Positions 20,407 through 24,415 of a DNA stretch of 64,000 nucleotides are shown piece by piece. Under the pieces are notes generated by a model, which worked only from the letters and a program-made list of their open reading frames with translations, was not told the origin of the DNA and searched no databases. The position numbers and the translations under genes are program-made. How positions within the stretch are numbered: the first letter of the stretch is position 1; each line of letters begins with the position of its first letter. Source of the DNA: an uncultured Dehalococcoidia bacterium. Lineage in GTDB: Bacteria > Chloroflexota > Dehalococcoidia > Lucifugimonadales > G958296245. The stretch covers positions 682,001-746,000 of the forward strand of contig OY282458.1 of the NCBI GenBank assembly GCA_958296245.1, written 5' to 3'.

Positions 20407-20918
20407 CCTTTCCCCGGCGCGCCGGGGGGCCGCTTCGGTTTCTTCGGTGGATCCTCCCTGGGAGCGCGGGCGTCTCGCCTGCTCCGTCCTGTGCCGGAAA
20501 GACGGATGATCCTCCCTGGGAGCGCGGGCGTCTCGCCTGCTCCGTCCTGCGCCGGAAAGACGGGATGAGTGTAAAGCCGTCCTAATATGAAACGACACCG
20601 CCTAATCTGGGACAGGTCCGGGGCGGGGCCCCTCTGCACCCCCCCGTAATCCTGGAGACCCCTTCTTTGGAAGGGGAATAGATTATATATCTGAGGGACA
20701 CCCTCAGACACCCGGCAAAGGGGCGCTGCCCCTCTGCACACCCCGTAATCCTGGAGAGTCCTTCTTTGGAAGAAGGGATAGATTATATATCTGAGGGACA
20801 CCCTCAGGCACCCGGCGAGGGGCTCCGCCCCTCTGCACACCCCGTAATCCCGGGGTAGTGTCTTAGTTTGAAAATCCGAATCTCCGAGCCTTCCACGCGC
20901 TAGCTAGCTGAAAGGGTG

Positions 20919-20946
20919 TTGACGCTTTGGCCGGAAGGTGTATACT
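20919..20946 (+). promoter_or_regulatory. Promoter facing the tRNA-like element
   Basis: TTGACG at 20919-20924 and TATACT at 20941-20946 are 16 bases apart. The start would be near 20953, and a terminator on the same strand follows at 21064. The resulting ~140-nt transcript would run antisense to the tRNA-like cloverleaf. Confidence 0.6.
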
Positions 20947-20964
20947 TGAATTGAGGTTGCGGTA

Positions 20965-21057
20965 AGGAGGGCAGCGGAGTCGAACCGCAACGCTAGCCTT
21001 GGACTAGCTGCTCATGGGATTCTGAGTCCCAGTCCCGTCCAACGGGCAATACCCTCC
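20965..21057 (-). tRNA. tRNA-like gene, class II, 8/4 fold, anticodon CAG (allo-tRNA-like)
   Basis: On the minus strand a full cloverleaf forms. The acceptor stem has 8 bp (GGAGGGTA with TGCCCTCC); the D arm is short (CCCG-TTGGA-CGGG, 21034-21046); the anticodon arm is TGGGA-CTCAGAA-TCCCA with anticodon CAG (21022-21024). A long variable arm has a 7-bp stem (20992-21008), and the T arm has 4 bp with the canonical TTCGACT loop. Acceptor plus T stem total 12 bp as 8+4, like published allo-tRNAs and tRNA-Sec, not the usual 7+5. The base after the acceptor is T, not the A expected for Leu, and CCA is not encoded. The clear promoter and terminator lie on the opposite strand, so it could be a decayed gene or part of a plus-strand structured RNA. 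Confidence 0.5.
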
Positions 21058-21063
21058 GATTGA

Positions 21064-21096
21064 GACCCCCGGCTTACTGAGGCTGGGGGTCTTCTT
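21064..21096 (+). terminator. Rho-independent terminator
   Basis: GACCCCC (21064-21070) pairs with GGGGGTC (21085-21091), and TTCTT follows. It closes the plus-strand transcript predicted from the promoter at 20919. Confidence 0.65.
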
Positions 21097-21538
21097 ATTC
21101 TCCCACCCCCTCTTAGAAGAGCTTGACAAAATACCCTTAATCACCCTGTAGTCTCTCGCGTGACCTTGATAGGTCGTTCGTAGAAATCCGCAATCCGACG
21201 CGGGGGGATGGGGATGGATTATATATCTGAGGGACACCCTCAGACACCCGGCAAAGGGGCGCTGCCCCTCTGCACACCCCGTAATCCCTGCGCCTCCCTG
21301 GGAGCGCGGGCGTCTCGCCTGCTCCGTCCTGCGCCGGAAAGACGGATGAGTGTAAAGCCGTCCTAATATGAAACGACACCGCCTAATCTGGGACAGGTCC
21401 GGGGCTCCGTCCCTCTGCACACCCCCGTAATCCTGGAGACCCCTTCTTTAAAGGAGAACAGGATTATATCTGAGGGACGCCCTCAGACGCCCGGCAACTG
21501 ACGCCTGGCAACTGGCGCCTGGCTACTCTGGGCCCCGG

Positions 21539-23961: not shown

Positions 23962-24077
23962 TGTCAAGAAGCCCCCACGCTCCCAGCCATTATATATGAG
24001 AGGAAGGTCTGAGGGGCAGGCGAGACCATATATGAGCATCGAAGAGCAGGCGAGACGCCTGCGCTCCTGTTCCCCCC

Positions 24078-24415
24078 CTGGGAGCGCAGGCGTCCCGCCT
24101 GCATACGCATTGCCCGCCTGCATACGCATTGACAATAGGGGGGTGACATTCCGCGCCACCCTAAAAAGGCCTGCTATTGGGGCGGTCCATTCCTCGACGG
24201 CCGCGTGTGCAAGGGCTTAAGGGCGGGAGCAGGCGAGACGCCTCCCCTGGGAGCGCAGGCGTCCCGCCTGCATACGCATTGCCCGCCTGCATACGCATTG
24301 ACAATAGAGGGGTGACACTCCGCGCCACCCTAAAAAGGCCTGCTATTGGGGCGGTCCATTCCTCGACGGCCGCGTGTGCAAGGGCTTAAGGGCGGGAGCA
24401 GGCGAGACGCCTGCG
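24078..24415. repeat. 169-bp tandem duplication with REP-like ends
   Basis: The segment starting CTGGGAGCGCAGGCGTCCCG at 24078 is repeated at 24247 (offset 169) with only a few differences. Each copy contains a doubled CCTGCATACGCATTG, the block CGCCACCCTAAAAAGGCC, and a GCAGGCGAGACGCC end that belongs to the dispersed REP-like family. It fills most of the 592-bp gap between proB and the FAH gene; I see no gene there. Confidence 0.88.

Follow-up and report, generated by a model that had tools for sequence, protein, structure and literature searches.

What is encoded on the minus strand at 20965-21057 of this 64,000-nt stretch of an uncultured Dehalococcoidia genome (the window), and is it used? 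The original prediction described a class II tRNA with an 8-bp acceptor stem, a 4-bp T stem, a long variable arm and a TTCGACT T loop, a description with which both ARAGORN and the MFE fold agree. ARAGORN called one tRNA in the window, at exactly these coordinates, and the MFE fold of the minus strand was a cloverleaf of -42.5 kcal/mol that was equaled by 1 of 200 shuffles, with an 8-bp acceptor stem, a short D stem, a 5-bp anticodon stem, a variable region of 26 nt that includes a stem-loop and a 4-bp T stem. The anticodon CAG, the T at position 73 and the absence of an encoded CCA had also been read correctly. The parts of the gene are as follows.

20965-21057, minus strand: allo-tRNA gene, 93 nt (ARAGORN, MFE fold, covariance models R1 at 106.2 bits and R2 at 97.1 bits, covariation over 11 members)
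21057-21050 with 20973-20966, minus strand: 8-bp acceptor stem (ARAGORN, MFE fold)
21046-21034, minus strand: D arm (ARAGORN, MFE fold)
21031-21015, minus strand: anticodon arm (ARAGORN, MFE fold)
21022-21024, minus strand: anticodon CAG, which would read CUG, with U33 before it and A37 after it (ARAGORN)
21008-20992, minus strand: stem-loop of the variable arm (ARAGORN, MFE fold)
20988-20974, minus strand: T arm (ARAGORN, MFE fold)
20965, minus strand: U73 (sequence)

At gathering scores, Rfam had no match at the tRNA locus. At permissive settings the sole good match was tRNA-Sec (35.3 bits, E = 1.5e-5, cut-off 47), and the canonical tRNA model of Rfam was unmatched even then. A 7/5 fold was rejected: its would-be 49-65 pair is T-T in the window copy and Watson-Crick in none of 11 aligned members. 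In 10 of the 11, a standard pair occupies the eighth acceptor position, which makes the 8/4 fold clear, and the earlier preference for 8/4 over a canonical tRNA is supported. Reading the DNA as an integron attC site failed for lack of core sites.

Relatives were collected with two covariance models. R1, built from the first five members, found others in a further five genomes from the order. R2 was retrained on members from Chloroflexota, Patescibacteria and Acidimicrobiia only, with no acidobacterial sequence in training. Both models hit the minus strand at the window locus. A pattern scan of GTDB contigs, combined with the model, added at least Patescibacteria (Magasanikbacteria), one Acidimicrobiia MAG and one Gammaproteobacteria MAG; since the scan gives minimum counts and the genome searches sampled at most 400 genomes each, this distribution is a lower bound. 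Over the 11 hand-aligned members, 19 of 26 pairs covaried with changes on both sides (shuffled mean 8.2), and 90% of cells paired, compared with <50% when the partner was slid by one column; these counts are biased towards the structure to which the alignment was fitted. Given this covariation, a second copy in the same genome and relatives in several phyla, the minus strand of 20965-21057 is confirmed as a real, structurally odd tRNA gene, far beyond chance.

R2 yielded 53 matches, scoring 49-74 bits, which were spread over 37 of the 250 Acidobacteriaceae genomes sampled (about 15%), with UAU, GCG and GUC among their commonest anticodons. The same three are named as the predominant anticodons of 8/4 allo-tRNAs in a review (PMC7609411). 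Because a model without acidobacterial training sequences recovers tRNAs with these anticodons in a published allo-tRNA host family, we file the window tRNA as an allo-tRNA, as the phrase 'allo-tRNA-like' had anticipated, and we hold this assignment, taken alone, with high confidence. Homology was judged by model matches in the host family and not against the published sequences themselves. It is the first Chloroflexota allo-tRNA in the literature searched, which did not cover the original 2017 allo-tRNA paper.

The anticodon varies among relatives (CAG, GCG, GAG, UAA, CUA, GAA, GCA, GUA, GAU, CAC and UAC in the 11 hand-aligned members). All 11 have U33 and a purine at 37, and U33, near-universal in tRNAs, is retained in nearly all non-acidobacterial members. 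Many Acidobacteriaceae allo-tRNAs (for example, L226, L231 and L233) have C33, with loops such as CCGTCAA and CCGCGAA. In Patescibacteria, all 11 allo-tRNAs of loci L272-L282 carry GAU, compared with the diversity seen elsewhere. Beside the allo-tRNA of genome G145 (anticodon GTA) lies a second odd tRNA-like sequence (L058:1424-1490) with an apparent 9-bp acceptor and no ARAGORN call, possibly a 9/3-type companion. Tandem allo-tRNA-like genes occur at L186:628-711 and 768-854 (TAC and TAA), the first with broken pairs, about 2.7 kb from a tyrosine recombinase-like ORF. Plasmid and phage collections gave no DNA match, and a lone pattern match in viral contigs (L198) was not confirmed by the covariance model. 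Among the GTDB contig pattern matches listed, most were coding or chance and were thrown out by the model. R1 matches around 30-37 bits, and Dehalococcoidia matches of 42-48 bits that ARAGORN called tRNA-Sec, were taken as canonical Ser, Leu or Sec tRNAs.

Amino-acid identity had been left as unclear in the original prediction on account of base 73 and the missing CCA. Both of those points stand, but the acceptor is informative: its GGAGGG equals the first six pairs of the genome's tRNA-Ser genes (GGAGGGG, GGAGGGA) and is unlike its tRNA-Leu acceptors (GCCGAAG, GCCCAGG, GGGGAAG). The serine identity elements are thus mixed, with six acceptor pairs of the host tRNA-Ser but U at base 73, where G is a serine identity element. 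All other aligned members, and most relatives, have G73; the two copies of the window genome have U73. Some relatives encode CCA, which is absent from both copies and present in 14 of 16 canonical tRNAs inspected in the genome. SerRS recognizes the variable arm, not the anticodon. In Escherichia coli, Silvibacterium allo-tRNAs put serine at leucine codons (PMC7609411). On the strength of those experiments and of variable-arm recognition, serine charging is expected, and the window tRNA would then read CUG as a leucine-to-serine missense suppressor; both charging and decoding are inferred.

The genome surrounding the gene is a single contig of 2.69 Mb that is 98% complete, and its relatives are SAR202, Dehalococcoidia and Chloroflexota MAGs. 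It holds a second copy (G000:C1:2568143) that is 86% identical and has the anticodon GCG. Neither this copy, nor the mobile-element context, nor the theme of an antisense partner had been part of the original prediction, which had placed the tRNA between direct repeats of ~190 bp: repeats do flank it, at a measured length of about 177 bp. The features around the tRNA are listed below.

20511-20688 and 21293-21469: flanking direct repeats of about 177 bp (repeat comparison)
20854-20872, plus strand: left terminal inverted repeat of an IS1-like element, GGTAGTGTCTTAGTTTGAA (0 mismatches; 0.00 expected)
20854-21057, no strand assigned: stretch common to the second copy (102/110 identical in the flank, 83/93 in the tRNA; sequence comparison)
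20919-20946, plus strand: sigma-70-like promoter TTGACG-16-TATACT, directed into the tRNA through its 3' side (scan 1 versus 0.3 expected; z = 3.6)
20953-21095, plus strand: predicted antisense RNA over the whole tRNA, its ends inferred from promoter and terminator and unobserved
21062-21093, plus strand: 14-pair hairpin with a T-rich tail, the intrinsic terminator of the antisense transcript (terminator-like hairpin search)
21097-21129, minus strand: TTGTCA-21-GAGAAT, a weak remnant of a sense promoter directly upstream of the hairpin (read from sequence)

Homology between the two copies starts at the terminal repeat at 20854 and ends at the tRNA 5' end. Their ten differences within the tRNA fall in the D loop (one), the anticodon (two), position 44, the variable loop (three) and the acceptor (three), where the eighth pair is A-U in the window and G-C in the second copy, and the seventh is U-G and U-A, respectively, so that no pair is broken in the acceptor, D, anticodon or T stems. 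The second copy sits in a 392-bp element. Each end of that element carries the repeat of which the window copy retains the left one, GGTAGTGTCTTAG, related to the terminal repeats of the G111 carrier described below, and the target duplication matches at 6 of 8 positions; the window has no right end of the IS1-like element. No transposase of IS1-like type lies near either copy, and no autonomous partner was seen in the genome via the terminal repeat, whose third match there (L050) has no tRNA and was rejected. A more complete carrier is present in a SAR202 relative (G111, bin22), where the allo-tRNA lies within an element with 22-nt terminal inverted repeats that are 95% complementary and start with GGT. 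This element encodes a transposase split over two ORFs that matches IS1 only weakly in NCBIfam (24 bits versus a cut-off of 100, no better after fusing the two frames) and carries a putative lipoprotein/peptidase passenger; a perfect 8-bp target duplication, GGCCACAC, was read from the sequence ends. The IS1 family is characterized by its transposase, GGT-type terminal inverted repeats and target duplications of 8-9 bp. The window allo-tRNA sits in the remnant of an IS1-like element, the IS1 assignment itself being weak. Just beyond the G111 element are CRISPR-like repeats (GTTCACCCCCAC...GTGGGGACAGC; L042:440-540). Elsewhere in the window, 24072-24409 is a head-to-tail duplication of a 169-nt unit (98% identity) near the 5' end of a proB-like ORF.

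As had been proposed, a clear promoter and terminator are present only on the opposite strand. Of the antisense promoters, only that of the window copy is convincing; the second copy has a partial one, keeping the -10 but not the -35. On the sense side, the second copy has the better promoter (TTGACG-18-CAGAAT), with a scan score above shuffles (z = 2.6) that the window does not reach (z = -0.6). The hairpin at 21062-21093 would also fall in the 5' leader of any sense transcript. The second copy has a hairpin of unrelated sequence at the same place, and most non-acidobacterial relatives have one similarly placed: hairpins scoring ≥18 close to the tRNA 5' end were found at 11 of 17 non-acidobacterial loci versus 4 of 39 acidobacterial loci with partner RNAs. 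The other Chloroflexota members have the hairpin and no clear antisense promoter. We infer, with no transcription data, that the two copies differ in their degree of silencing. Several UAU-type members (among L229, L247, L260, L269 and L271) have an antisense TATAAT-like site within a few bases of the 3' end of the tRNA.

Because U73 without CCA is unusual for the genome and the sense promoter is weak, the window copy may be silent or decaying. Whether it is expressed as a tRNA seems to us evenly balanced, in the absence of expression data. In its strongest form this doubt makes the gene a decaying copy of a dead mobile element, with a fold that is merely inherited and no expression as a tRNA. 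The missing right end would fit, as would the fact that the tRNA is no more similar to its second copy than the flank is. Against it, the acceptor, D, anticodon and T stems have no broken pair, and the changes between copies are all in loops, at unpaired positions or pair-keeping. We regard simple decay as unlikely, though still a serious contender.

What the antisense transcript might do is suggested by relatives, in which a separate sequence complementary to the anticodon arm lies near the tRNA. This pattern was first spotted by eye in the flanks and then tested on an enlarged set. In the 250 nt downstream of the tRNA, uninterrupted complementarity of ≥12 nt that included anticodon-loop bases was found at 25 of 70 loci and in none of 1,192 swapped tRNA/flank pairs; at ≥10 nt, the figures were 32 of 70 loci and 0.4%. 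Canonical tRNAs gave no such complements (≤7 nt for six tRNA-Ser from the Patescibacteria search and ≤8 nt for 34 tRNAs of the window genome). Among Acidobacteriaceae loci, with the UAU group set aside, cognate duplexes averaged -34.0 kcal/mol versus -21.1 kcal/mol for swapped ones with another loop. There, 37 of 39 loci have a partner complement, a judgement from duplex energy and by eye with no single threshold; the two without are L215, which has Ns in the flank, and L265. A promoter precedes the complement at 33 of the 39 loci at ≥8/12 (29% of shuffles) and at 28 at ≥9/12 (5% of shuffles), and a terminator follows at 33 (without a shuffle control), so that the partner usually has both of its own. 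Since most complements begin 5-9 nt after the end of the -10, they would form the 5' end of the partner RNA. In eight loci (L220, L223, L231, L232, L234, L238, L239 and L240), the last 15-20 nt of the tRNA 5' leader are partly complementary to the anticodon arm and also resemble the start of the partner RNA.

All 13 Patescibacteria allo-tRNAs (11 newly found and two from Magasanikbacteria) have a partner nearby. It lies upstream at nine of the new loci and downstream at two, with 12-16 exact nt at ten and about 15 nt with one wobble at L282; both Magasanikbacteria partners are upstream, with a wobble or mismatch. Because L276 and L277 have almost the same sequence, not every locus counts as independent. 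Upstream partners at L275, L276 and L280 include a hairpin or stretch that resembles or complements the tRNA variable arm. The strongest sign that the pairing matters comes from two Dehalococcoidia genomes, G433 and G453, in which the module occupies the same site between metK and ahcY. The two tRNAs are almost the same in the acceptor, variable and T arms and differ greatly in the D and anticodon arms. Each has a downstream partner fitted to its own tRNA, with 20 and 13 exactly matching nt, respectively; anticodon arm and partner have thus switched together. No separate complement was found within 250 nt of the window copy or of the other IS1-type, Acidimicrobiia and UAU-type members; for the window copy, a search of the rest of its genome for an anti-anticodon RNA encoded in trans also came up empty. 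Together, these patterns suggest that allo-tRNAs are kept in check by partner RNAs, which go unmentioned in the literature searched; as that did not include the original 2017 paper, priority is unverified.

On balance, and without great confidence, we lean towards a composite reading in which the window gene, an allo-tRNA of observed fold, family and mobile context, is inferred to be transcribed, charged with serine and read at CUG, to be silenced by antisense RNA along lines suggested by the complementarity observed in relatives, and to form with that RNA an addiction-type module. The gene would have arrived on the mobile element, of which one end survives, and low-level transcription would yield a tRNA that places serine at CUG codons. 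The module would consist of two RNAs, the tRNA and a partner able to base-pair with its anticodon arm. For Acidobacteriaceae, Patescibacteria and some Dehalococcoidia, this partner would be a small RNA transcribed separately from a promoter of its own and beginning with the anti-anticodon stretch, and in the window it would be the antisense transcript of the whole tRNA, started at 20919-20946 and ended at 21062-21093. By opening or masking the anticodon arm, this RNA would keep the mistranslating tRNA silent. The likeliest role may be a toxin-antitoxin-like one that aids persistence of the mobile element; anticodon arms that change together with their partners would avoid cross-silencing among copies, as expected of addiction-type modules. 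A tRNA-specific antisense partner, one criterion for toxin-antitoxin systems, is seen in relatives, whereas the window offers only a predicted overlapping antisense RNA, whose complementarity is automatic and is no proof by itself. More broadly, allo-tRNAs might be one half of widespread, unrecognized RNA-RNA modules with a co-evolving anti-anticodon RNA (a tRNA toxin and an antisense antitoxin), the window copy being a mobile variant with a full-length antisense partner; no toxicity has been shown, and we offer this only tentatively.

The main rival to addiction is simple regulation of a suppressor tRNA, that is, an ordinary allo-tRNA that suppresses missense with serine at a low level or serves as a stress tRNA, with partners that only tune its level. 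The fold is intact and tRNA-like, the Silvibacterium tRNAs do insert serine in E. coli (PMC7609411), and a purely selfish element would not need the fixed metK/ahcY site of G433 and G453. Yet anticodons differ among nearly all non-acidobacterial members, often within one genome, and because they differ so widely a single decoding task is hard to sustain. We doubt this explanation without being able to discard it.

It is improbable that the plus-strand transcript is itself the functional RNA and the tRNA shape a by-product. The only strong promoter and terminator are indeed on that strand, but G-U wobbles far exceed A-C mismatches (115 versus 20 over 70 members, 26 versus 9 in non-acidobacterial members and 11 versus 0 in the acceptor stem of the latter alone), which identifies the tRNA strand as the strand under selection. 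U33, the T loop and G18G19 are features of the tRNA strand, a Patescibacteria locus (L130) has an extended -10 and a terminator on it, and the plus strand, once its terminator is removed, is no more stably folded than shuffled sequence (z = -0.93). Finally, despite its top Rfam match and leucine anticodon, the gene can safely be dismissed as tRNA-Sec (anticodon CAG, not UCA, and a score under the cut-off) or canonical tRNA-Leu (which has a 7/5 branch, a leucine-type acceptor and A73, none of them present here), as its acceptor is serine-like and the genome's ordinary tRNA set already includes a true tRNA-Sec (UCA, 65.9 bits) and a canonical tRNA-Leu(CAG).

Among known systems, tRNA-Sec shares the 8-bp acceptor and long variable arm with the window tRNA and differs in its anticodon and in the window's 4-bp T stem, 4-bp D stem and sub-threshold family score. 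The G111 carrier resembles the IS1 family in its two-ORF transposase, GGT repeat start, 8-bp duplication and IS1 match, and departs from it in the weak profile score and in its allo-tRNA and lipoprotein/peptidase passengers; the window-genome copies differ further in having no transposase. CreT toxins are RNAs that sequester tRNA (CreTA, PMC8501985). Like CreTA and type I/VIII toxin-antitoxin systems, the modules comprise two adjoining small RNA genes, one neutralizing the other, but here the presumed toxic RNA would be the tRNA itself, the partner would pair with the anticodon arm, no Cas protein is involved and toxicity has not been shown.

The closest comparison is with the allo-tRNAs of Mukai et al. 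(2017), for which a review lists Clostridia, Proteobacteria and Acidobacteria as hosts and one link to a transposon-related ORF (PMC7609411). The window tRNA has in common with them the 12-bp acceptor branch, which in allo-tRNAs is divided either 8/4 or 9/3 and here, as in all 11 aligned members, is 8/4, the long variable arm, the likeness to tRNA-Sec and the serine-type acceptor, and its family shares their widely varying non-serine anticodons. Partner or antisense RNAs are a further difference as far as the literature searched goes, the 2017 paper aside. To our knowledge, the role that allo-tRNAs play in the host has been a question ever since they were discovered. Partners that track the anticodon arm across Acidobacteriota, Patescibacteria and Chloroflexota lead to a testable hypothesis, that these tRNAs are normally silenced by base pairing, which if true would provide natural, sequence-programmable off-switches for orthogonal tRNA design. 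To the published allo-tRNAs the window adds a new phylum, Chloroflexota, and a member with U73 and no CCA, and, with the complete IS1-like carrier and target duplication of its relative in G111, a mobile-element route of spread.
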